Source: Capnocytophaga cynodegmi DSM 19736
Lineage (GTDB): Bacteria; Bacteroidota; Bacteroidia; Flavobacteriales; Flavobacteriaceae
NCBI RefSeq assembly: GCF_000379185.1
Contig: NZ_KB900715.1
Location: forward strand, 124,001-188,000
Direction of reading: 5' to 3'
Length of the DNA stretch: 64,000 nt
The position numbers and the translations under genes were made by a program. The notes under the pieces were generated by a model. The model saw nothing but the letters and a program-made list of their open reading frames with translations. It had not been told where the DNA came from and did no database searches. Below are positions 31,619 through 41,886 of this stretch, piece after piece (the stretch's first letter is position 1; each line of letters begins with the position of its first letter).

Positions 31619-31704
31619 GCTCGGATGGTGGAATCGGTAGACACGCTGGACTTAAAATCCAGTGGGCAGCAATGCCTGTGCGGGTTCAAGTCCCGCTCCG
31701 AGTA
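31619..31704 (+). tRNA. tRNA-Leu (anticodon TAA)
   Basis: 86 nt with a long variable arm. Acceptor GCTCGGA pairs with TCCGAGT; anticodon stem CTGGA / TCCAG encloses CTTAAAA with anticodon TAA; T-arm contains GGTTCAAGTCCC. The 3' end is the attachment site of the element at 31690-41820, and the gene is left complete. Confidence 0.96.
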
Positions 31705-31755
31705 CAACAAAAAATCGTAATACTTTTATAATGAAAGTGTTGCGATTTTTTTATT
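31690..31755 (+). repeat. attachment site, tRNA-proximal copy (66-bp direct repeat)
   Basis: Identical to 41755-41820 with mismatches immediately outside both ends. It covers the 3' end of tRNA-Leu from the T-arm onward plus the following terminator hairpin. Confidence 0.95.
31707..31755 (+). terminator. terminator of the tRNA unit
   Basis: AAAAAATCGTAATACTTTT pairs, with G-U wobble, with AAAGTGTTGCGATTTTTTT around a short loop. An identical copy lies at 41772-41820 because the hairpin is part of the duplicated att site. Confidence 0.8.
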
Positions 31756-31760
31756 TCGAT

Positions 31761-31779
31761 TTTTCCCTACATTTTCCCA
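31761..31779. repeat. candidate arm-type integrase site near attL
   Basis: TTTTCCCTACATTTTCCC here matches the tandem repeats at 41598-41622 near the other end, in the same orientation. Repeats of this kind close to both att sites are typical of integrase arm sites; binding is not shown. Confidence 0.5.
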
Positions 31780-31953
31780 ACAATTCAAAAAATGCTATTT
31801 TGTCAGGTGGTTTTTTTTGAAGTCGTTTTTGCTTTAATTGGCTTTTGCATAACCACAACAACAAGCCACAAAAAAAGCCCTCGATGATTTTAACCAAAGA
31901 GGGCGAGAAAACAAAGTCAAAAAACAAAAAATTATTATCTTCAAACACAACCT

Positions 31954-31975
31954 TTTTTATGCAATTTTTATGCAA
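31954..31975. repeat. tandem 11-bp repeat
   Basis: TTTTTATGCAA twice in a row (31954-31964 and 31965-31975), close to the left end of the element. Might be another recombination-protein site. Confidence 0.4.
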
Positions 31976-32021
31976 TTCGTGCATTTATTACAAAAACTAA
32001 ACGTGGCTTATTGAACCACGT

Positions 32022-32213
32022 TTAAAGTTGATTGTTTAACCAAGGGTCCTTCACTTGTTCTCTTTTGTCGATTACCTCAATTTGTATCAAAGGAAGTTCT
32101 ATTTTTTGGGTCAATTCTTTCAATTGTTCAGGTGTAATATATCCTTGTTTAAGAATTTTCAAAAGTAATACTTTTGCTTCCTTATCTAATGGTTTTGCTT
32201 CACTATTTTCCAT
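32022..32213 (-). CDS. small hypothetical protein of the element
   Basis: 63 residues, acidic and helical (MENSEAKPLDKEAKVLLLKI, LKQGYITPEQLKELTQKIEL), without a signal or membrane segment. Its start overlaps the stop of the 49-residue gene at 32203 by 11 bases, which supports that it is a real, coupled gene. It is the last gene of the leftmost minus-strand run, 270 bases inside attL. Function not known. Confidence 0.55.
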   Translation of the reverse strand: MENSEAKPLDKEAKVLLLKILKQGYITPEQLKELTQKIELPLIQIEVIDKREQVKDPWLNNQL

Positions 32214-32352
32214 CTTTTATTTCTGCATTATATGTATTTATCCATTTCAGGGGTTGAGGTTCTTTACTTTTGGTTACGTTTTTTGGCTTCTTAACCTTTT
32301 GTATTCCATTTGTTATCCGTACCCCTTTGATTACTTTAACAACTTTCTTCAT
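32203..32352 (-). CDS. very small basic hypothetical protein of the element
   Basis: 49 residues, strongly basic (MKKVVKVIKGVRITNGIQKV, KKPKNVTKSKEPQPLK). Its ATG overlaps the TGA of the upstream gene as ATGA (32349-32352), a classic sign of translational coupling, and its stop overlaps the next gene. Such overlaps make it more than a chance frame. Basic charge suggests nucleic-acid contact; this is a guess. Confidence 0.55.
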   Translation of the reverse strand: MKKVVKVIKGVRITNGIQKVKKPKNVTKSKEPQPLKWINTYNAEIKDGK

Positions 32353-32645
32353 TCTTTTAAAATATTCTCGGTTAAGTTTTCGATGATTGTATTTAGATTG
32401 TCTTCTGAAAGGGCTTCTAATTCAATATTAGCCCCCAACGTTTGCATTTTTGGCAAGGTGTATTGTAAAAGCCTTTCAAATGCCTGTATGCGTTCTTTCG
32501 GTTCAAGTGCCTTAAAATCTTTTTCAATCTGCTCCTGATTTTGGTCTAAAAAAGACTTTAACCACTTTCGCATATCGTTTGTGGCTTTATTAGGAGTTCC
32601 CTTTTTTCTTCCTCCAGTCTTTGCAGTTCCTTTAACTCGAGGCAT
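32349..32645 (-). CDS. GGRKKGTPNK-motif protein, possibly terminase-small-subunit-like
   Basis: 98 residues. N-terminal MPRVKGTAKTGGRKKGTPNK is the start seen in many phage and island proteins annotated as DUF5681 or small terminase-like DNA-binding proteins; the rest is helical (KWLKSFLDQNQEQIEKDFKA, LLQYTLPKMQTLGANIELEA). The family memory is not verified. If it is a small terminase, the element could redirect packaging of a helper phage. The stop overlaps the next gene as ATGA and the upstream gene ends 2 bases before its start. Confidence 0.6.
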   Translation of the reverse strand: MPRVKGTAKTGGRKKGTPNKATNDMRKWLKSFLDQNQEQIEKDFKALEPKERIQAFERLLQYTLPKMQTLGANIELEALSEDNLNTIIENLTENILKE

Positions 32646-32646
32646 A

Positions 32647-33090
32647 TTATCTGTTTTGTGAAGTTTCCATTAATGCTTCCTTAAATGCTTTTTTCATCAT
32701 ATCGAATTGCTTTTGTTCCTGTTTCTGTTTTTCTAAATCCTCATTTAACTTATTCTTACTTTCAGCATATTCATTGATATTTACAAAACCGTGCATATTT
32801 GCAAAGGTTGTGAATATATTGAAATTGTTTTCTCGAAGTTTATCATTTACTTGACCAGCATTAAAATGCAATATCAAGTTTTCATATACTTTGCGTTCCG
32901 TTTCATCTGTTAATCTCTCTTTCAATATATCTTGAAATTCCAACTCTTCATTAATAACGTTTATAACGTGGTTGGTCGCAAAGTCTCGGTTTAATTCCCT
33001 TGCCACACTTTCCAACGTTCTTTCAAAATCTTCTATGAAAGTTTCTTTGTGGAGTGTTGAAAAATTATCCGCTTGGATAATCAAATACAT
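32647..33090 (-). CDS. hypothetical protein of the element
   Basis: 147 residues, soluble and largely helical, with a coiled-coil-like charged stretch near the C-terminus (ESKNKLNEDLEKQKQEQKQF, DMMKKAFKEALMETSQNR). No family recognised. It lies directly upstream of the GGRKKGTPNK protein with one base between stop and start, so the four genes 33090 to 32022 form a tight operon. Confidence 0.65.
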   Translation of the reverse strand: MYLIIQADNFSTLHKETFIEDFERTLESVARELNRDFATNHVINVINEELEFQDILKERLTDETERKVYENLILHFNAGQVNDKLRENNFNIFTTFANMHGFVNINEYAESKNKLNEDLEKQKQEQKQFDMMKKAFKEALMETSQNR

Positions 33091-33117
33091 CTACCTCAAA
33101 TCTTGTATTTTATGTTG

Positions 33118-33198
33118 TTAGTGTACATTCTTACCTACTGCCTTCCTTTGTTTGATTAATTCTTTGATTTTTTCTTTGTTTTGCTCTATACTATTCAT
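33118..33198 (-). CDS. possible 26-residue peptide
   Basis: A short frame MNSIEQNKEKIKELIKQRKA then VGKNVH, helical and basic, 28 bases upstream of the gene starting at 33090. Only composition and spacing support it; it may be chance. Confidence 0.25.
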   Translation of the reverse strand: MNSIEQNKEKIKELIKQRKAVGKNVH

Positions 33199-33313
33199 AA
33201 TTTCAGTTATTATAAAATTCAGTACAAAAATAACACTTTTATTTCTATTTCAATCTATTATAGATATAAAATTAAAGTATTAGTTTAATATTTTAATTAT
33301 TATACATTGATAA

Positions 33314-33595
33314 TCAATTTATTTTAAGTTTATTAAGGTTTTCAATCCGAACACTTAAGGCGGTTAATTTTTTAATTAAATCCTTTGTTTGCTCCAAAGT
33401 CAAGAAAGTAGCCATTTCTGCGGTATTTTCACCCAAAAGGCCTGTTAATACCAAACCTAAAGAATAATGCGAAAAAACGCCGTTTGTGTGCGTCCTACAC
33501 ACTTGTAACGATATTTGCGTATTTGCATCAGTGGCAACTTCGATGATTTCGGAGTTTTTAAATTCTTTGATTGTGGGTGTGTGATTTTTTTTCAT
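33314..33595 (-). CDS. hypothetical protein of the element
   Basis: 93 residues (MKKNHTPTIKEFKNSEIIEV onward), soluble, with LGLVLTGLLGENTAEMATFL in the middle and a helical C-terminus (LIKKLTALSVRIENLNKLKI). No motif I recognise. It starts 27 bases after the stop of the replication gene, on the same strand, so it is probably cotranscribed with it; it could be an accessory to replication. Confidence 0.6.
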   Translation of the reverse strand: MKKNHTPTIKEFKNSEIIEVATDANTQISLQVCRTHTNGVFSHYSLGLVLTGLLGENTAEMATFLTLEQTKDLIKKLTALSVRIENLNKLKIN

Positions 33596-33622
33596 CGGTT
33601 TATTTTTTTTGAGTTAATTTTT

Positions 33623-35131
33623 TTAAAACAATTCCAGTTGATTTTTGAAATACTTTTGCAAAGGCGGTTTGTTGGGTTGATTGTTTAACTTGCGATACAA
33701 ATTCCGTACTTGTTTGCATAAGTGCATTATGATATTTTTTTCTCTTACGGGTTTGTAACCTGTACTTGGCAAAAGGTACGAACAAAGCAAAATATATCTT
33801 TCAGGGTCGTGTTCTCGCAAATATAAAAAAGTTGCCGTTCTGATGTACCTCGCACCCTCTTTTTCGTGGGTTAATTCAACCCCCGTAATCGGACACGATT
33901 TTTTAATTTTTTCGACCCCATTTTTTAACGAATTTTCGACCTCGTTTTTTTCTACTTTTTTAACCTCAAAATTTGATGTTTTTTTGTCCCTTTTTTCTTC
34001 ATCTTCTAAACTCATATTTTCAGAACTTAAAACAACCTTTTTTTCAAGGTCTGTTTTTTTGATGTTACAATCTTCCCGTTTACTTAAAGGGTAATTTTGT
34101 AACATAACCCTATTTTTACTTGTATTTTCAGGGTCGGTAATTTTGTAACATTTTTCACTTTTTGAGGGCGAAAAATTGATATTATTTTGGTCGTTTTCAG
34201 GGTCGGTAATTTTGTAACATTTTGGGGTAATTTCATTGTTAAAAATCGCCTCTTTTTCGTGGTGCATTTTTCGTATAATTTGCCCCTTTTGATTGTCTGA
34301 AAAAGTGGTGTTTAATTCCTCTAAAAACTCCTTTGCTCGTTGTACTTGCATACGGGTCATATTTTGCCAAAATGCGGGGTTTCGCAGTTCGTTTAATCGT
34401 ATCAAATCTTTTTCCGTAAGTTCGTTTGCTCGTAGTGAATTATCAATATTAACCACTTTTTCAAATTCCGATGTAACTACTTCAAAGGCTTTTTGTAGGT
34501 TATCGGTGCTGAGGTCGGCAAGTGTGTGTATAGGTACTCCTGCATTATGCAGTTTTTGCATTTTTATTACTTTAACCTCAACCCTTACCACTTCATCATA
34601 TAACCCATATTGTTTGCCTTTGTTGTATAGTTTCAAGTAGTATTGACTATATCCAAACTCAAAGTAATTACGTCCGTGTTTGATAGTCGGGGCAAAGTTA
34701 TTGCGGTGTGCCTGAATACCTTGCAAAAAATCAAAGGCACTAAACGGAATAACATTGTTCAACCCTATTTCAATATTTTGAAGTACGCACCCACCCGCCT
34801 GAACGTCCAACAACTTACAAAGATGTTTTATAACATTTTCTACTTCTGAAAGTGTAAATCGGTCGCCATTAAATCCGTTGTATTTTGCCGTCCATTCGGG
34901 GCGTGTGTTTCCGATAAGTTCGTTATGTAGTTTGTGTATGCTACCTTTAAGGATAAAACCACCATTATAGGGCTTTAATCGCATATTGTGGTACTTGTAC
35001 ACTTCTTTCACTACTTCGCCCGTGTAAGGGTCGGTTTCCTGTTCTACGTACAGAAATGCCCCACTTGTCAAAATCTGATGTAGTTTGTCGTTATCGGGGT
35101 ATGATACGGATATTTTTATAAAATCTACCAT
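33623..35131 (-). CDS. replication initiator, phage-CRI (gene II)-like
   Basis: 502 residues. The first 250 match the pattern of the phage replication CRI family of rolling-circle initiators, such as filamentous-phage gene II: HNMRLKPYNGGFILKGSIHK, VLQNIEIGLNNVIPF, YYLKLYNKGKQYGLYDEVVRVEVKV. The second half is a low-complexity, charged region with two KCYKITDPEN-type repeats at about residues 304 and 327 encoded by the iteron-like DNA repeats, then a basic C-terminus (EKGARYIRTATFLYLREHDP, ERYILLCSYLLPSTGYKPVR). Catalytic Tyr and metal residues were not assigned. It would nick and replicate the excised element. Confidence 0.7.
   Translation of the reverse strand: MVDFIKISVSYPDNDKLHQILTSGAFLYVEQETDPYTGEVVKEVYKYHNMRLKPYNGGFILKGSIHKLHNELIGNTRPEWTAKYNGFNGDRFTLSEVENVIKHLCKLLDVQAGGCVLQNIEIGLNNVIPFSAFDFLQGIQAHRNNFAPTIKHGRNYFEFGYSQYYLKLYNKGKQYGLYDEVVRVEVKVIKMQKLHNAGVPIHTLADLSTDNLQKAFEVVTSEFEKVVNIDNSLRANELTEKDLIRLNELRNPAFWQNMTRMQVQRAKEFLEELNTTFSDNQKGQIIRKMHHEKEAIFNNEITPKCYKITDPENDQNNINFSPSKSEKCYKITDPENTSKNRVMLQNYPLSKREDCNIKKTDLEKKVVLSSENMSLEDEEKRDKKTSNFEVKKVEKNEVENSLKNGVEKIKKSCPITGVELTHEKEGARYIRTATFLYLREHDPERYILLCSYLLPSTGYKPVREKNIIMHLCKQVRNLYRKLNNQPNKPPLQKYFKNQLELF
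34090..34220. repeat. iteron-like repeats inside the replication gene
   Basis: GGTAATTTTGTAACAT occurs at 34090-34105, 34136-34151 and 34205-34220. The last two belong to a perfect 30-bp repeat (34125-34154 and 34194-34223) spaced 69 bp. A fourth copy is at 35826-35841. All have the same orientation. Confidence 0.85.
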
Positions 35132-35177
35132 ATTTTCAAGGTTTTATGTTTTATGCCTTATGCTTATGGTTTACAAC

Positions 35178-35636
35178 CTATTGCAATCCAAAATATCTTT
35201 TTATTTGAACTGAAATCATAGTTATTGCTAATGGCACGTCCATAGGGTAATAATTCGGATACTCCAAAATTGCTAATTTGGTGCGGTCGGTATTGAATAC
35301 GAAAAATAACAAGGTATGTTTTTTGTAACGCCCGTAATAGTCTTTGCTCGATATATCGCCGTAATAGATTTGCGGGTGTGCGGTTCTGAAAAGCCCCGTG
35401 AGTACTTCGCCCCACTTGGCACGTGTGCCGTCTGCTTTACGTGGTGCGGGTTTGTACCAAAAGGCGACGTTTTCCGAACGATTGAAGTTGCGTTGTACAG
35501 ATATATTGGCAAAGTCCAAAATATGCCGACTATTTGCGGTTTGGTGTATCTTTTCAAAGTGCGTAACTTCTTTGTATTTGTCTGATGTTTCTATTTTGGC
35601 AAACTGATGTATGTTTGCTCCGTTTAGGTTATTCAT
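35178..35636 (-). CDS. hypothetical protein of the element
   Basis: 152 residues, basic and aromatic-rich, with no signal or membrane segment (FNRSENVAFWYKPAPRKADG, FRTAHPQIYYGDISSKDYYG, VPLAITMISVQIKRYF). Not recognised. It lies 46 bases upstream of the replication initiator on the same strand, so it might be a replication accessory such as a single-strand DNA-binding protein; this is a guess from position and composition. Confidence 0.6.
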   Translation of the reverse strand: MNNLNGANIHQFAKIETSDKYKEVTHFEKIHQTANSRHILDFANISVQRNFNRSENVAFWYKPAPRKADGTRAKWGEVLTGLFRTAHPQIYYGDISSKDYYGRYKKHTLLFFVFNTDRTKLAILEYPNYYPMDVPLAITMISVQIKRYFGLQ

Positions 35637-35747
35637 ATTTATTTAATGATTAAAAGATTAAATGATTAAAAAAATTACTTGGATTTTGTTACTTGTTACT
35701 TGGTTCTTTGAACTTTATACTTTATCCTTGTTCCTTTTTTTTAAGAC

Positions 35748-35783
35748 AAAAGCCCCCCTACGCCCCTATTTTGGGGGCTTTAC
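35748..35783. terminator. GC-rich hairpin, possible terminator
   Basis: AAAGCCCCC and GGGGGCTTT flank about 17 bases. On the minus strand an AT-rich run with T's follows, so it could end the transcript of the 35856 gene; the T-run is broken. Confidence 0.45.
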
Positions 35784-35819
35784 CTACTTGTTATTTTTTG
35801 AATGATTATTTAACGAATT

Positions 35820-35850
35820 AGGGGCGGTAATTTTGTAACATTTTGCCCCT
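35820..35850. repeat. iteron-like repeat, fourth copy, with inverted flanks
   Basis: GGTAATTTTGTAACAT at 35826-35841 is bracketed by AGGGGC (35820-35825) and GCCCCT (35845-35850). It lies in the noncoding gap upstream of 35178-35636. It may be an origin element or a binding site of the replication initiator. Confidence 0.6.
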
Positions 35851-35855
35851 TGTGG

Positions 35856-36359
35856 TTACTTGGTGGGGTGCTGTTCTTTGAACTTTTGGATAAACTCGGT
35901 ATAGGTTATTTCATCGTTCATAAATGAATAGTTGAGGTTTGCGTATTCGTCTGTAGGGTCTTTAAACCAACCTAATACATAGCAATCTAATTCATAATCA
36001 GGCGTGAAGTACAAATCGTTATGTACGTAATAAAACTTATCCGAAAATTTGTACAATTGCTTAGCCACTTCAAAATATTGCTTTTGGTCGTCTTCTGTAA
36101 AGTCTTTACCCCTTTCCAATATCGAAGCCAAAAGGCGGTAAAAAATGCCTGTATCGATTGGCTTTTTATCAAACTCTTTCAGGAAAAGGTTAAGGCGGTT
36201 CGTGACTTCGATAGCATCTAATGCCAATAACGAATATTTGAGGGCGTCTTTTTGGGTGTGCATTCCAAAATCATTCACAGGTATAAACGTACCGAATTCC
36301 TCATTTGTTTTGCCGTTGCGGTCTTTGATTGTCAAGGTTTGTCTTTCTAAAACTCTCAT
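35856..36359 (-). CDS. hypothetical protein of the element
   Basis: 167 residues, soluble, helical and charged (LERQTLTIKDRNGKTNEEFG, NDEITYTEFIQKFKEQHP). No family recognised. It is divergent from the Xre gene and is transcribed from the promoter at 36449-36479, which the operator-like palindrome at 36478-36494 overlaps. So it is probably an early gene under Xre control. Confidence 0.65.
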   Translation of the reverse strand: MRVLERQTLTIKDRNGKTNEEFGTFIPVNDFGMHTQKDALKYSLLALDAIEVTNRLNLFLKEFDKKPIDTGIFYRLLASILERGKDFTEDDQKQYFEVAKQLYKFSDKFYYVHNDLYFTPDYELDCYVLGWFKDPTDEYANLNYSFMNDEITYTEFIQKFKEQHPTK

Positions 36360-36448
36360 ATTATTATTTTTAAATAGTTACTTAATTACTTTGGTTCTGA
36401 AACTTTGCGTAATCGAAAATATTATAACTTATGTTTTATTTTACAATG

Positions 36449-36479
36449 CAAAAATATAACCTTTAATTTATACAAACAA
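36449..36479 (-). promoter_or_regulatory. promoter of the gene at 35856-36359
   Basis: On the minus strand TTG (36479-36477), 20 bases, TATTTTTG (36456-36449). Confidence 0.6.
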
Positions 36480-36531
36480 GTTATTTTATAACTTTTTATT
36501 TATTTTATTTCTCTTTTAATATATTATACGT

Positions 36532-36539
36532 TATATTTG
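36532..36539 (+). promoter_or_regulatory. -7 box of the Xre gene
   Basis: TATATTTG, 19 bases before the Xre start codon, overlapped by an operator-like half-site. Confidence 0.6.
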
Positions 36540-36558
36540 CAGTCAAAATAATAACGTT

Positions 36559-36825
36559 ATGTTACGGATTAAAGATATTTTAAAAGAAAAAGCATTGACG
36601 CAAAATGAACTTGCCGAAAAATTAGGGGTGTCTCAAGTGGCTTTAAATAAAGTAATTAACGGAAACCCTACGATTGAAACCCTTTTAAAAATCGCCAATG
36701 TTTTAGAAGTTGATGTAAGGGACTTAATCGAACCCACGACCTCAACGGCAACCACGCCTCTATATATCAAAGACGATAACGGCAACTTAGTTGAGGTGGG
36801 CAGTCTTAACAAGGATAAAGAGTAA
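36559..36825 (+). CDS. Xre/HTH_3 family transcriptional repressor
   Basis: 88 residues. A single HTH_3 domain fills residues 5-57 (LKEKALTQNELAEKLGVSQV, ALNKVINGNPTIETLLKIAN), followed by a short tail. It is the only plus-strand gene in the element and is divergent from the gene at 36359 across an array of candidate operators, the layout of a phage-type switch. One candidate site overlaps its own promoter, so autorepression is likely. The target genes beyond the divergent pair are unknown. Confidence 0.88.
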   Translation: MLRIKDILKEKALTQNELAEKLGVSQVALNKVINGNPTIETLLKIANVLEVDVRDLIEPTTSTATTPLYIKDDNGNLVEVGSLNKDKE

Positions 36826-36888
36826 AGGATAAAGTAACAAGTAATCAAAATCCAAGTAACAAGAACTTGAAACCTTGAACCTTGTAAC

Positions 36889-36919
36889 TTTGAACTTTAT
36901 ACTTTTTTCCGTATCTTTG
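36889..36919 (+). promoter_or_regulatory. promoter of a putative small RNA
   Basis: TTTG (36889-36892), 19 bases, TATCTTTG (36912-36919), an exact consensus, with no gene downstream on this strand but a terminator 37 bases further on. Confidence 0.6.
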
Positions 36920-36925
36920 TCACGT

Positions 36926-36977
36926 TCGTACGCACAAAACTTTTCTAAAACACTTGGGGGCTTTTGCCCTCTTTTTT
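36926..36977 (+). ncRNA. putative small regulatory RNA complementary to the int and RteC-like leaders
   Basis: The promoter at 36889-36919 predicts a transcript start near 36926; a terminator (stem GGGGGC / GCCCTC, loop TTTT, then TTTTTT) ends it at about 36977, giving about 52 nt. Its unpaired middle holds ACTTTTCTAAAAC (36939-36951). The same 13 bases stand on the plus strand at 41536-41548 and 39201-39213, which are the mRNA leaders of the integrase and RteC-like genes, so the RNA is perfectly complementary to both, ending six bases from each start codon. It also lies convergent to the KilA-N gene. Expression is inferred from sequence only. Confidence 0.5.
36956..36977 (+). terminator. terminator of the putative small RNA
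   Basis: Stem GGGGGC / GCCCTC with TTTT loop and a T6 run. It could also stop readthrough from the Xre gene. Confidence 0.65.
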
Positions 36978-37674
36978 ATGCTTTATTGTAGTTTTCAATC
37001 ACTTTTAACAACTGACTTTCAGAGGTAATCAATTTTTGTTCAATCACTTGGGTTACAAACTTTTCAATATCTGAAATGCGTTGTAGTTGTCCACGTGTGG
37101 CAGTGTCTCTAATACCTTTTTCGTGTCTTCCAAATACTTTATTATTGATTTCACGGCTGTACAAGGCATAATTAGGCTCTTCGATAATAGTTGCGATGGC
37201 TCTATTCATAGGGGCAAACTCCGACCCCGCCAATATGCGGTTAAAAATAAGGCTGTCGGTTAGCCAAATTACCACCTTTGCGTAAATCAACGGGTTTAAT
37301 TCCATTGCTAAAAGTACCCATATATAAGGGTCGGCATAGGTAGATTTATTTTCGCCCCTGCCTGTAGTTTTCCAAACTTTAAGACCTTTAAGGGTTTTTA
37401 TAACACCCTCTTTTTCAACAAACTGCATAAAACTGATTATATTCATTTTTATGATACCTCTCTCATTTAAAAGATGATATACTCTTTCTTGAAAAGGTTT
37501 GGTTTTTACTATATCTTCTACTTGTCTATTAGACCACCCGTACTCAAATCTTGCAGTTTGATAGGCTTTCATCAGGTCGGTAACCGACAGGCTTTGTCCG
37601 TTCTTTGTATTTTGTTTGATAATCACGCCGAATAAATTGCGGTCAGCACTTTTCATTATTACGTTTGTTTTCAT
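36976..37674 (-). CDS. KilA-N domain protein, phage antirepressor-like
   Basis: 232 residues. The KilA-N-type domain spans about residues 25-145 (LSVTDLMKAYQTARFEYGWS, STYADPYIWVLLAMELNPLI, YAKVVIWLTDSLI); the second half is helical and ends EQKLITSESQLLKVIENYNK. KilA-N proteins bind DNA and often act as antirepressors in phages. It starts 6 bases after the excisionase-like gene, so they are cotranscribed. It would counter the Xre repressor; this is inference. Confidence 0.8.
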   Translation of the reverse strand: MKTNVIMKSADRNLFGVIIKQNTKNGQSLSVTDLMKAYQTARFEYGWSNRQVEDIVKTKPFQERVYHLLNERGIIKMNIISFMQFVEKEGVIKTLKGLKVWKTTGRGENKSTYADPYIWVLLAMELNPLIYAKVVIWLTDSLIFNRILAGSEFAPMNRAIATIIEEPNYALYSREINNKVFGRHEKGIRDTATRGQLQRISDIEKFVTQVIEQKLITSESQLLKVIENYNKA

Positions 37675-37680
37675 AATTCA

Positions 37681-37959
37681 TTAGTTTTTTAGTTCAATAA
37701 CGGCACTTTCTACCTCGTGGCGTTTGTAGTACACACGTCCGCCAATTCCGTATGATTTTAGTATGCCTTTGCGTGTCCAATTGTTTAGGGTCGTAAGGTT
37801 CACGCCTAACAAGTTAGCCACTTCACGGCGGGTTAAATACTCGGTGGGGGCTTTAGGCTGAAAATGTTTTTTGAGTTCGTTAATTTGGGACTGCACCACT
37901 TCCGAAAATTGTTCTTTGAGTTGCTCGGGGGTAATTTGAATAAATTGGATTGCTTCCAT
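37681..37959 (-). CDS. excisionase-type helix-turn-helix protein
   Basis: 92 residues. A helical N-terminus (ITPEQLKEQFSEVVQSQINE) precedes a winged HTH_17 domain (YLTRREVANLLGVNLTTLNN, WTRKGILKSYGIGGRVYYKR) that is standard for Bacteroidota excisionase-family or MerR-type proteins encoded next to integrases. It is probably the recombination directionality factor of the element. It precedes the KilA-N gene. Confidence 0.85.
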   Translation of the reverse strand: MEAIQFIQITPEQLKEQFSEVVQSQINELKKHFQPKAPTEYLTRREVANLLGVNLTTLNNWTRKGILKSYGIGGRVYYKRHEVESAVIELKN

Positions 37960-38013
37960 CGTTGAATAATTTTTTATGTTTTTCGATGGTGCAAAGGTCT
38001 ATCATATGCAACC

Positions 38014-38057
38014 AAAAAAAAGGACACGTTACCCCCGCAGAAAGGTAACGTATCCTA
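38014..38057 (-). terminator. intrinsic terminator of the RteC-like gene
   Basis: On the minus strand GGATACGTTACC, loop, GGTAACGTGTCC, then a run of nine T's. It lies 28 bases beyond the stop codon at 38085. Confidence 0.9.
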
Positions 38058-38084
38058 CAAATTGAATGAAATAAACTGAAAAGG

Positions 38085-39194
38085 TTATTTTTCCTCTTTC
38101 ATTATACTTTTGAAGTCATTTTTTAGTTTTGTTAATAGTTTTGGTGGTGTAGGTTGCTCAAAGTTTTTTATTAGTTTATTTAGGAATTTCGGTTGTTTCT
38201 TGCGTTCGGGTGCGGTTGTTTTCGATATGATAACGCTGTAATTTTCCTTTGTTAGTTTGCTGTTTTTGTTGTTTACCACCTCAAAAACGGAATTAAAAAC
38301 CTCAACAATATCAATGATACTATCTTTCAAAGTTCCTGTAAGTGTAAGGGCTTTGATTAACTCCATTGCTTCTCTTGGTGTGCCGTGCCACTGAATTTTT
38401 TTGAATGGTTGCGGTTCGGGGGTTTTTGTTTGCTCCTTAAAATTGTGGAGTAATTGATGTTCCGAAACAACGGGGGCGGGTTGGGCTTCCCCAAAATTGG
38501 GGACGGGTTGGGGGTCTTGGGTTGGTTCTGTTCGTTGCGGTTTTGGTTCGGATACGGGCAAAGGTAACGTTTCCTTTTTCGGGGAATTGCTTTCTGAAAG
38601 TGGGTTGTTATCCGTGTACAACTCTTCTGAAAGTAAAAACCTTACTATTTTTTCGATGTTTTTAGTGAAGTTTCTGTATTGATTTTTTTTAAAGATAATT
38701 GTTTTGGCTTCCTCGTTCCAAACAAAGAAAGTGTTTAGCACCCGACGAACTTCATAACTGAAATAGAAATCGCCTTTTTGATTGTTGGGATAATATACTT
38801 CCTTTTCCTTTTCGTATTCAAGGGATAATATTTGTGCAGGAGAGTCTTTGCTTATCAGTAGGTAATTTGTTTTGTTTGTTAAAAAATCGTGATATAATGA
38901 AATATCAAAAAAATTAGTTTGGTAACTTGTTGGTTCAAAAGGTTCAAAAACTTCATATTTTACCCAAAAACCTTTAAAATCAAGCCCGTTTATTCCATAA
39001 TCAGCAAAAAAAGGGTAGTATATTTGTAAATATTCCTCTTTAAAATCTTTTTCTTCTCCGTACGGGCTTTGTAGTTCCAACCACTTTTTTAAATGGTTAG
39101 GGTAGTTGTCCATAAATTCTTTGTATGTTAAATAAAATTTTATTTCACTACTCGCAAGTAGTAAATTTGTGCTTTCTGTATTATGTATATCCAT
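38085..39194 (-). CDS. RteC-like protein
   Basis: 369 residues. The N-terminal 200 residues are mixed alpha/beta with many aromatic residues. About 205-260 is a proline-rich linker. From about residue 265 the C-terminal part (IQWHGTPREAMELIKALTLT, GTLKDSIIDIVEVFNSVFEV) resembles the RteC domain of Bacteroides conjugative elements, a winged-helix activator of excision genes. The end is basic. The 5' leader carries GTTTTAGAAAAGT six bases before the ATG, complementary to the putative small RNA, and a strong terminator follows the gene. The RteC link is a moderate-confidence call by eye. Confidence 0.6.
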   Translation of the reverse strand: MDIHNTESTNLLLASSEIKFYLTYKEFMDNYPNHLKKWLELQSPYGEEKDFKEEYLQIYYPFFADYGINGLDFKGFWVKYEVFEPFEPTSYQTNFFDISLYHDFLTNKTNYLLISKDSPAQILSLEYEKEKEVYYPNNQKGDFYFSYEVRRVLNTFFVWNEEAKTIIFKKNQYRNFTKNIEKIVRFLLSEELYTDNNPLSESNSPKKETLPLPVSEPKPQRTEPTQDPQPVPNFGEAQPAPVVSEHQLLHNFKEQTKTPEPQPFKKIQWHGTPREAMELIKALTLTGTLKDSIIDIVEVFNSVFEVVNNKNSKLTKENYSVIISKTTAPERKKQPKFLNKLIKNFEQPTPPKLLTKLKNDFKSIMKEEK

Positions 39195-39200
39195 ACCTCA

Positions 39201-39213
39201 ACTTTTCTAAAAC
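39201..39213 (-). promoter_or_regulatory. leader motif of the RteC-like gene, small-RNA target
   Basis: GTTTTAGAAAAGT on the minus strand, six bases before the ATG. The same motif at the same distance precedes the integrase gene. Confidence 0.5.
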
Positions 39214-39282
39214 ATTATTATTTTTTAATCGGCTCAAAATTCAGCCAATCGCAAGGGGTTGCCCTTAAATTATTGGTTTTTA

Positions 39283-39312
39283 CGCCCTAAAATCATCGGA
39301 GGGCGGTTTTTT
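39283..39312 (+). terminator. intrinsic terminator of unknown transcript
   Basis: CGCCCT (39283-39288) and AGGGCG (39300-39305) followed by a plus-strand T-run. No plus-strand gene precedes it nearby; it may isolate the Fic/int unit from the RteC-like gene. Confidence 0.55.
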
Positions 39313-39418
39313 AAGGAGTTTCCGTAACAGAACCCCCATTAATATTGCATTTATGTAGTCATTTACTCTTTCATTTATACGAAATGCCGTTTTTGTATAA
39401 ACGTGGTTACGCAATACC

Positions 39419-40156
39419 TCAACCCTCAACAATCTTTATAATACGTTCAATGGTTTGGCGTATGTTATCCGCAATTAGGTCAATAAAGGGGCGTTTGTCA
39501 TTATCTATTTGGGCGGTTTCCAAAGTCCCGTAATATTTCAAACGGCTTTCCGTATCGCCTTTGAGTATCGCAATAGGGTAACCCCACCGCAACAATATCA
39601 AATTCATTAAAAGCCTCGAAGTACGCCCGTTGCCGTCTATAAAGGGGTGTATGGTTACTAATCGTTCGTGCATTTCGGAGGCTAACTCAATAGGGTGTAA
39701 CGTATCTTTATTGTCATTGTACCACTGCATCAGTTTTTCCATTTCCAAAGGCACGGCGTAAGGTTGCGGGGGTACGTGCTTTGCTCCTGAAATCAATACG
39801 GGTACATTGCGATAACGCCCCGCATTGCTGTTGTCAATGCCTTTCAATATCAGGGCGTGTATTTCGGTTATTAGGCGTTCGGTTATCGGTTCGTTACCCT
39901 TTGCTATTTCTTTGATAAAGTCTATTGCGTGGGTGTGGTTCACGGCTTCCAAATGTTCGTTTAGGGTTTTGCCTCCAATGGTCAAGCCTTTTTCAATGAC
40001 AAGGGCGGTTTCTTGGAGGGTTAAAGTGTTGCCCTCAATCTTGTTGCTTTCATAGGTGTACTCTATTTCAAGGGCTTTAACCACCTTTTCACTTTGTAAG
40101 GCTCTTAACTCATTGAGGCGGTTTTTAAGGTTATCTATTTCAGTGTATCTATTCAT
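39419..40156 (-). CDS. Fic family protein, class II with N-terminal inhibitory motif
   Basis: 245 residues. The catalytic motif is HPFIDGNGRTSR at about residues 170-181, with His170 and the anion-binding loop intact, so it can be an AMP- or other nucleotidyl-transferase. An N-terminal SNKIEGN (about 37-43) is the [S/T]xxxE[G/N] inhibitory helix, with Glu41 expected to block the active site, so it is class II. No separate antitoxin gene is needed. It follows the integrase by 2 bases as an operon partner, so its expression is tied to integration. Target protein unknown. Confidence 0.93.
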   Translation of the reverse strand: MNRYTEIDNLKNRLNELRALQSEKVVKALEIEYTYESNKIEGNTLTLQETALVIEKGLTIGGKTLNEHLEAVNHTHAIDFIKEIAKGNEPITERLITEIHALILKGIDNSNAGRYRNVPVLISGAKHVPPQPYAVPLEMEKLMQWYNDNKDTLHPIELASEMHERLVTIHPFIDGNGRTSRLLMNLILLRWGYPIAILKGDTESRLKYYGTLETAQIDNDKRPFIDLIADNIRQTIERIIKIVEG

Positions 40157-40158
40157 AA

Positions 40159-41529
40159 CTATTTTATATTTAAGTCGTTCAATTGGTTTAGTTCTTGGAT
40201 TAGTTCGGGTTTGGAAGTTAAGAAATCGACCATTTGTAAGGCAGTTTCGGCTTCATTTTTACCGATGTATTTTAGTAACATTGCTTCGGTAGAATGTCCC
40301 GTAACGTTCTTAATTATCGTAGTGGGTAACTTTCCGTATAGGTTGGTCGCAAACGACCGCCTACATACGTGCGAGGTTATAAACTCGTATTTTGGTAGGG
40401 TTACTTTTATGGTCCGTTTGTTACCTTTGCCCTCGTAATTACCTTTATCGTCTTTCTCTATGGCGTTGCCGTTGCGGTCAATCAGTACCGACCTTGTGTG
40501 TGTTATTGGAATATCAATACCCGCCAACTTACATACTTCTTTAATGTATTCGTTAAGACGTTGGATACTGATAGGATAAGGAAGCCCCGCATTTTTTATT
40601 TCTAATATTTCAGAATTAAGCCCCTCGATGATAGGAACGATAACTATTTTGCCTGTTTTTTGTTGTCTTATCCTAACTGCTGGAGTACCATTGTCCAAAT
40701 AAGCATAGTTGGAATGGTCTATTTTTAAAAGGTCGCCCCCACGTTGTCCCAAATGACAACCCAACAAAAGCCACTTACGGGCGTTGTGTAGTTGTAAGTT
40801 TGTTATTTTGCAGTCTCTTATCTGTTGGAGTTCCTGAGGATTGAGGTATATAGGTAACTCTTTTTCGGGTGTACCTTTGGCTAATTTAGGCAGTTGGGGG
40901 CTTGTCTCAATGCCTAATGTATTTGCTTCGTTGCATACGGCTTTGAGGTTGTCCATTAGTTTGAGGGCGTAACTATCTTTATGCTGTCTTGTATTTATTA
41001 GCCAATCCAGAAAAAGGCGTTCAAACTTTAAATCTATATCCTTTGCCTTGTAATGCTTTCGGGTTTTGGATTGATAGGCGTTGAAAATGGTTTTTAATGT
41101 TTGATAGGATTTTACCCTACTTTGAGAAAGTCCCAATGTACCCCGTCCGTTTTTGCGTGTGTGGGCGGTTTGTATGATGTAATCGATAAGGTCAAGGATA
41201 AATGCACTTTGTCCCGTGTTGGGGTCGTCTATTCGTTTGAAAAAAATATCAATTTGAGTTTGTAGCCAATCGGCATTAACGGGGTCGCCTTGCTGTTGGG
41301 CTTGGTTTAGGCTGTTTTCAATGAATAGTTTTAAAGTGCTGAGGTCAGTTGCGAGGTTTTTATTTTCGGGACTTGTGGGCTTAGGTTCTTTCTTTTTGGC
41401 ACTCCATTGGTCGGGGTCGATGAGTAAGCCCGTTTTTTTGATATAGTCTTTCCCACGTTGTAGGTTCAAACGTACGTATATGGTTGCGGGGTTGGTCTTA
41501 CTTTTGACCAAAAATGTAACGGACGGCAT
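40159..41529 (-). CDS. tyrosine recombinase/integrase of the element
   Basis: 456 residues. It has an N-terminal arm-binding/SAM-like domain (VTFLVKSKTNPATIYVRLNL), a core-binding domain (about 120-215, QSRVKSYQTLKTIFNAY) and the catalytic domain. Catalytic residues visible are Arg in GQRGGDLL (about 262), His and Arg in HVCRRSFATN (about 385-388), His in TGHSTE and Tyr in LLKYIGK (about 418). It is next to the distal att copy, as expected. Its promoter is at 41553-41583, and its leader carries GTTTTAGAAAAGT. It starts a two-gene unit with fic. Confidence 0.95.
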   Translation of the reverse strand: MPSVTFLVKSKTNPATIYVRLNLQRGKDYIKKTGLLIDPDQWSAKKKEPKPTSPENKNLATDLSTLKLFIENSLNQAQQQGDPVNADWLQTQIDIFFKRIDDPNTGQSAFILDLIDYIIQTAHTRKNGRGTLGLSQSRVKSYQTLKTIFNAYQSKTRKHYKAKDIDLKFERLFLDWLINTRQHKDSYALKLMDNLKAVCNEANTLGIETSPQLPKLAKGTPEKELPIYLNPQELQQIRDCKITNLQLHNARKWLLLGCHLGQRGGDLLKIDHSNYAYLDNGTPAVRIRQQKTGKIVIVPIIEGLNSEILEIKNAGLPYPISIQRLNEYIKEVCKLAGIDIPITHTRSVLIDRNGNAIEKDDKGNYEGKGNKRTIKVTLPKYEFITSHVCRRSFATNLYGKLPTTIIKNVTGHSTEAMLLKYIGKNEAETALQMVDFLTSKPELIQELNQLNDLNIK

Positions 41530-41535
41530 AATATT

Positions 41536-41548
41536 ACTTTTCTAAAAC
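41536..41548 (-). promoter_or_regulatory. leader motif of the integrase gene, small-RNA target
   Basis: GTTTTAGAAAAGT on the minus strand, six bases before the integrase ATG and at the predicted 5' end of the message. Confidence 0.5.
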
Positions 41549-41552
41549 GATA

Positions 41553-41583
41553 CAAAAGTAATAGTTCTTGTTGGACTTGTCAA
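41553..41583 (-). promoter_or_regulatory. integrase promoter
   Basis: On the minus strand TTG (41583-41581), 20 bases, TACTTTTG (41560-41553). The predicted start, near 41547, leaves an 18-nt leader. Confidence 0.65.
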
Positions 41584-41597
41584 GTCATCAAAAATCT

Positions 41598-41622
41598 TTC
41601 CCTACATTTTCCCTACATTTTC
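41598..41622. repeat. tandem arm-type repeat near attR
   Basis: Two overlapping copies of TTTCCCTACATTTT, matching the single copy at 31761-31779 near the other end of the element. Candidate integrase arm sites. Confidence 0.5.
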
Positions 41623-41754
41623 TGTTTTGCTTTCAACTTTATTGTATTATTTTGTATTATTTGTAACAATGTTTTTCAAGTTAGTTAATTGAATTACAAA
41701 ACAATAACACTGATTTTAAAGAGAATACGAAAAGGGTAAAAATATAGGTGTCTT

Positions 41755-41820
41755 GTCCCGCTCCGAGTACAACAAAAAATCGTAATACTTTTATAATGAA
41801 AGTGTTGCGATTTTTTTATT
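41755..41820 (+). repeat. attachment site, distal copy (66-bp direct repeat)
   Basis: Identical to 31690-31755. It supplies a second copy of the tRNA 3' end and of the terminator hairpin at the element's right boundary. Confidence 0.95.
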
Positions 41821-41886
41821 CCAAGTCTTATAAAAAATACAATATCAGTAGTTTTTTATCACAAAAGCTATCAAAACAGAACATAA

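Follow-up and report, generated by a model that had tools for sequence, protein, structure and literature searches.

A putative family of antisense RNAs complementary to integrase leaders in integrative elements of Flavobacteriaceae

The integrative element and its genes

The window, that is, the whole 64,000-nt stretch of the Capnocytophaga cynodegmi DSM 19736 genome that was analysed, contains an integrative element of approximately 10 kb (31690-41829), flanked by a 75-nt direct repeat whose copies (31690-31764 and 41755-41829) are 95% identical. The 3′ end of a tRNA-Leu gene (31619-31705) lies within the left copy. The minus strand of the element carries int, a Fic gene, an RteC-like gene, an HTH_17 gene and a gene for a 232-aa protein, while a small RNA gene and an XRE regulator are found on the plus strand. 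The int gene (40159-41529, minus strand) codes for a tyrosine recombinase of 456 aa with the Pfam domains Phage_integrase and Arm-DNA-bind_5. The RteC-like gene (38085-39194, minus strand; 369 aa), the second putative target considered below, matches Pfam RteC with 24.4 bits, slightly below the cut-off of 25.3, and its product is a poor anchor because only weak matches to it exist (one in the wider-family sample and one in Capnocytophaga felis). The HTH_17 gene (37681-37959, minus strand) is excisionase-like, with a TIGR01764 score slightly below the cut-off, and the XRE regulator (36559-36825, plus strand; HTH_3) lies upstream of the RNA gene. A conserved protein of 502 aa (33623-35131, minus strand) serves as a marker of this family of elements; it has no Pfam match, and we infer that it is probably a replication initiator. 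As far as can be inferred from its genes, the element has no recognisable tra operon.

Some other characteristics of the element can be mentioned. The Fic/DOC gene (39419-40156), which separates int from the RteC-like gene, has been retained in C. felis, and a different gene, of 151 aa, takes its place in two relatives described below (L111 and L112). Repeats of the TTTCCCTACATTTTCCC type are present near both ends of the element (31759-31785 and 41594-41620), and similar two- or three-fold short repeats, such as GTTGACTAAATGTTGACTAAAT, precede the promoters of many related int genes; these repeats at the element ends are likely to be arm-type sites of the integrase. The sequence GGTAATTTTGTAACAT occurs four times (34090, 34136, 34205 and 35826), three of them inside the gene of the 502-aa protein, where a VTKLPT-like repeat is encoded, and the fourth in an intergenic region. 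When viral contigs were searched with int and the 502-aa protein, no close relatives and only one weak int match were obtained, and DNA and protein searches of phages and plasmids gave no useful result.

The RNA gene and its complementarity to two leaders

A trans-acting antisense RNA is expected to have its own promoter and intrinsic terminator without a coding frame, and a single-stranded seed that faces distant initiation regions and is kept by covariation. The first of these expectations is met at 36889-36977, and the features involved are kept in relatives. The promoter, recognised by its sequence (36889-36919, plus strand), consists of TTTG (36889-36892), a 19-nt spacer and TATCTTTG (36912-36919), a TAnnTTTG-like box that is also kept in relatives. 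The intrinsic terminator, GGGGGC-TTTT-GCCCTC-T6 (36956-36977, plus strand), has a stem of 6 bp (36956-36971) and six T that reach 36977 and run into the end of the 232-aa gene, which is convergent and has its stop at 36976; shuffled versions of the region gave an expectation of 0.0 terminator-like sites. There is no ORF of at least 50 aa between promoter and terminator. The initial annotation had claimed an exact promoter, a terminator and the absence of a coding frame, all of which held, but the distance from the −7 box to the terminator, given as 37 bases, had to be corrected to 36 before the start of the stem. The predicted transcript has approximately 52 nt (36926-36977, plus strand), with an inferred start, and is supported by the lack of an ORF, by its fold and by its conservation in C. 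felis. It folds as a linker followed by the terminator (z −2.8), and the linker contains the seed AACTTTTCTAAAACA (36938-36952, plus strand), which is predicted to be unpaired.

Within this seed lies the 13-mer ACTTTTCTAAAAC, which occurs exactly on the plus strand at 36939, 39201 and 41536, so that the three same-strand copies reported by the initial annotation were confirmed. Its claim of a six-base distance between the end of the complement and the ATG also held, both for int (ATG at 41529) and for the RteC-like gene (39194). The target in the int leader (41536-41548, minus strand) begins four bases past the −7 box of an inferred promoter, TTG-N20-TACTTTTG (41553-41583, minus strand, identified by sequence), and in the leader of the RteC-like gene the match extends to the 15 nt of AACTTTTCTAAAACA (39200-39214, minus strand). 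Paired with its targets, the seed would span positions −19 to −7 on the int mRNA and, on that of the RteC-like gene, −20 to −6. When duplex energies were calculated for 85 leaders of the window (mean −8.4, sd 4.0), the two target leaders ranked first (−24.6) and second (−18.5).

It could be argued that these coincidences derive from chance or from the AT-rich composition of leaders, the 13-mer being a common translation-initiation sequence of the genome. In favour of this explanation, when the element was dinucleotide-shuffled 1000 times, some complex 13-mer was present three times in 10 of the shuffles, and, when two mismatches were allowed, the 13-mer was counted 15 times in the window against 9.1 expected, which is near expectation. 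The bare triple occurrence is, thus, only mildly unusual in an AT-rich element of 10 kb, and comparative evidence is required; it is the placement of the copies and their behaviour in relatives that make them significant. Against it, the 2.66-Mb genome has no more than four exact copies, of which three lie in this element. The fourth (contig C35:110398 of G000, locus L004) precedes a truncated integrase gene by some 45 bases and has the same orientation; we take it as a chance occurrence, although it may be a relic. Lone copies in three further genomes (G400, G404 and G023) were discarded, as their contexts are unrelated.

Conservation and concerted change in related elements

The same-genus genome G401 matches NZ_BLBC01000005 of C. 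felis, and its related element (L068) holds the three 13-mers without any change. Between a point before the −7 box and the terminator stem, its RNA gene shows one substitution and an insertion of 1 nt immediately before the seed, and the T-run of the terminator has one additional T, while the DNA farther upstream is diverged. The leader of the second target is an island of about 33 identical nt, and the gene behind it codes for a different protein, of 298 aa. The XRE gene is absent at the corresponding place and, therefore, is not what keeps the motif. As a separate observation, the C. felis homologue of the 232-aa gene (L068:9956-10654) is divided into two frames, of 138 and 88 aa, and looks broken.

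Two other, more distant Capnocytophaga elements, L111 (genome G405) and L112 (G397), were selected by means of int (56% identical) and the 502-aa protein (approximately 40%). In both, all three places have changed in concert, the seed now reading ATTTTTAAAAAC, and the RNA genes have TACCTTTG, a 5-bp hairpin (GTGTG/CACAC), the seed CACAATTTTTAAAAAC and a new terminator. The L112 seed region is complementary to the leader of gene 2 (the counterpart of the RteC-like gene) over 17 nt and to the int leader at 18 of 19 nt, 14 of them contiguous. In L111, 12 contiguous nt pair with each leader, and there is one extra base in an A/T run; this single-base slip is the only imperfection of the concerted change. 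The initial annotation would have been refuted by related elements in which an alteration of the 13-mer at one site is not matched at the other sites. The search of related islands for the triple motif did not find this, because the three sites are either kept (C. felis) or changed together (L111 and L112). The second expectation for a trans-acting antisense RNA, a single-stranded seed kept by covariation with distant initiation regions, is met as well.

To extend the comparison, int loci were taken from a sample of Flavobacteriaceae together with as much as 20 kb of flanking sequence; 75 distinct loci were usable. Many int leaders have a GTTCAAA-like sequence directly after the −7 box, and the 13-mer of the window was not found in the int leaders of the wider family. 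When a TAnnTTTG box and a terminator were required, eight loci showed an antisense match of at least 11 nt between the linker and their own int leader; mismatched leaders gave such a match in 0.7% of locus pairs, from which approximately 0.5 loci would be expected. Without the promoter requirement, there were 14 antisense matches of at least 11 nt, none in the sense orientation and three in the reversed control. Among the 14, at least three are unrelated to the RNA: those of L220 and L225, close to the far end of their loci, resemble att-core repeats and were discarded, and that of L111 is located at a different place from its small RNA. The match of L230 is doubtful. The mismatched-leader and orientation controls, the concerted change in relatives and the absence of this 13-mer from the int leaders of the wider family all speak against chance, which we regard as practically ruled out.

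If weaker cases are included, some 15-16 elements have an RNA of the same build, which consists of TAnnTTTG, usually a 5′ hairpin, a linker seed antisense to the element's own int leader and a terminator. The arrangement described by the initial annotation is not unique to this island, but recurs as a family in Flavobacteriaceae. The match between linker and int has 15 nt in L183, 14 nt in L160, L185 and L194, and 11 nt in L174, L189 and L206, while in L166 the pairing with int is poor. Over 14 elements, folding of the 5′ part was better than in shuffled sequences (combined p of 5e-8), although in the same comparison the hairpin was not significant in the window or in C. felis. The stem sequences differ among elements, and the variable hairpins could not be aligned by MAFFT. 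The RNA was recognised in only about a fifth of the int loci. Furthermore, the apparent agreement is inflated, because most members outside Capnocytophaga were found via their pairing with int, and a permutation test within these pre-selected loci, being circular, was not relied on.

The second target, the gene located immediately before the HTH_17 gene, was not used in finding the RNAs. Apart from int, its leader is the best paired in nine of 16 elements (which include two related pairs, the window with L068 and L111 with L112), and clear pairing is missing in six to seven. This gene is a clear RteC in L162 (6.5e-14). In L116, L177 and L256, the pairing takes place through the loop of the 5′ hairpin, by exact but differing 11-mers (TATGCGTTGCC, TTACGTTGCCA and TTATCGTTGCC, respectively). 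Duplexes that reach over the AUG itself are predicted in L185 and L116. It can also be observed that in L116, L162, L154 and L256 the RNA gene occupies the opposite strand, in the interval from a small gene that follows HTH_17 to a conserved gene of the 400-aa class. As it is antisense there, its 5′ half is perfectly complementary to the region just upstream of the start of the latter gene, which may be a third target, in cis.

Members were also sought with a pattern of the RNA alone, CGTTGCC-N4-24-CATTTGAACAAA, which matched four of 299 genomes. Three of them were already known, and the fourth (G286, locus L256) has an int leader that pairs over 10 nt and a gene 2 leader that pairs over 11 nt. 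As the pattern was built from known members, this test is independent of the int and gene 2 of L256, but not of the family. Among viral contigs, 18 matched the pattern, and a terminator directly follows it only in L244, whose int leader shows 10 nt of pairing; the remaining ones were dropped for the lack of this feature.

These results also bear on the possibility that the 13-mer is a DNA operator by which a regulator of the element (XRE, HTH_17 or RteC-like) coordinates three promoters. It is true that its core, TTTT-NN-AAAA, is partly palindromic, that the int copies are located just past the −7 box and that regulator genes are nearby. However, operators need no orientation, and the sites of an operator regulon would be expected in either orientation and not tied to an RNA gene, while the matches over the 75 loci are antisense only (14 against none in sense) and lie beside terminators. 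Furthermore, the site is placed between the hairpin and the terminator of an RNA gene; in several elements gene 2 uses the sequence of the hairpin loop, unlike int; the XRE gene is, as mentioned, lacking at this place in C. felis; and gene 2 of L111 and L112 has, by inference, no evident promoter before the motif. A shared protein operator is disfavoured because of the strict antisense orientation and the existence of two distinct seeds, and we consider it very improbable.

Proposed mode of action and relation to known systems

The architecture of the RNA gene, its antisense complementarity and the concerted change are shown by the sequences. By contrast, transcription of the RNA and repression through occlusion of the initiation site (whether or not the mRNA also decays) are inferences, as there are no expression data. 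The initial annotation had proposed that the RNA blocks the initiation of two mobility genes; this reading is supported, with RNA production and repression remaining unproven. We consider it likely that the locus codes for a short trans-acting antisense RNA that damps int and gene 2 together and belongs to a co-evolving family. In the proposed mechanism, the single-stranded linker would pair with two mRNAs in their short 5′ leaders, that of int and that of the gene preceding the excisionase-like gene (RteC-like in the window), and the duplex would cover approximately positions −20 to −7 before the AUG. Translation initiation of both mRNAs would most likely be blocked, which, given the position of the seed, we infer to be the simplest outcome, and mRNA decay may follow. 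In this way, one RNA would damp integration/excision and excision-related genes together, while the seeds of the family would co-evolve with their own targets in the integrative elements of Flavobacteriaceae.

Alternatively, the RNA could be real and act as an activator, direct mRNA decay or be a sponge titrated by the mRNAs. Complementarity by itself gives neither the sign nor the mode of action, and RteR of CTnDOT alters expression along an operon rather than the occupancy of a start site (PMC7366714). However, duplexes at −20 to −6, some of them over the AUG, are found at the usual place of translation-blocking small RNAs, and we regard these other modes as unlikely. Within the preferred reading, that of a blocked initiation, a bolder version can be proposed, towards which we lean only slightly: a widespread, undescribed family in which a single RNA acts coordinately through one seed or two separable ones (linker and hairpin loop). 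It would silence both the integrase and the gene that opens the excision operon, and in several elements it also has a cis overlap with the operon gene that follows. As the sets of seeds and targets diverge together, the control of each element would, in this version, be private, similarly to the specificity of RNA-based immunity or incompatibility.

The RNA can be compared with several known systems. RteR is a 90-nt trans-encoded RNA that acts on the tra operon (PMC7366714) and resembles the proposed window RNA in being a small RNA from an integrative element of Bacteroidota that affects the transfer of the element. Nevertheless, the window RNA does not fit this description, with a predicted length of approximately 52 nt and the int and RteC-like leaders as putative targets. 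RNA-OUT of IS10 is cis-encoded and has a long perfect overlap with its target. Like it, the window RNA is antisense and would limit the synthesis of a recombinase by acting at the initiation region, but RNAs of the window type are encoded kilobases away and pair over 10-17 nt with two separate mRNAs. The arrangement, therefore, differs both from transposase antisense RNAs and from RteR, as the initial annotation had claimed when citing them as precedents. The C4 antisense RNAs of P1-type phages pair through two short regions. They (e.g., Rfam c4-2, RF02944) are likewise small antisense RNAs of mobile elements, and the C4 covariance models (Rfam clan CL00128) did not match the window RNA even at E values up to 10. 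Separately, a c4-2 match was observed at L160:7750-7830, some 0.4 kb from the int-antisense RNA of that element, which indicates that one element may carry two antisense RNAs. Finally, sgm-sRNA of Salmonella genomic island 1, which comes from a longer primary transcript, at its 3′ end, and is required for mobilization (PMC9299015), is, like the proposed window RNA, a self-encoded small RNA that affects the mobility of an integrative element, but it has not been reported as an antisense RNA of int.

No Rfam 15 family matched at gathering score at the small RNAs, and no antisense control of the integrase in flavobacterial elements was found in the open-access literature searched, most subscription papers being outside its scope. 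The transcriptome of F. psychrophilum includes 85 newly described RNAs (PMC9723704), whose possible overlap with this family is undetermined. With this reservation, the family of mobility-control RNAs has probably not been described before.

The quiescence of integrative elements in Bacteroidota is known mainly from a few conjugative transposons of Bacteroides. The present finding provides a specific and testable candidate RNA switch, common to many flavobacterial elements, for which the natural compensatory variants permit clean seed-swap experiments. If the proposal is true, an element-private specificity, that is, a control of superinfection, would be predicted, and the RNA may also be used as a marker for the annotation of such elements.
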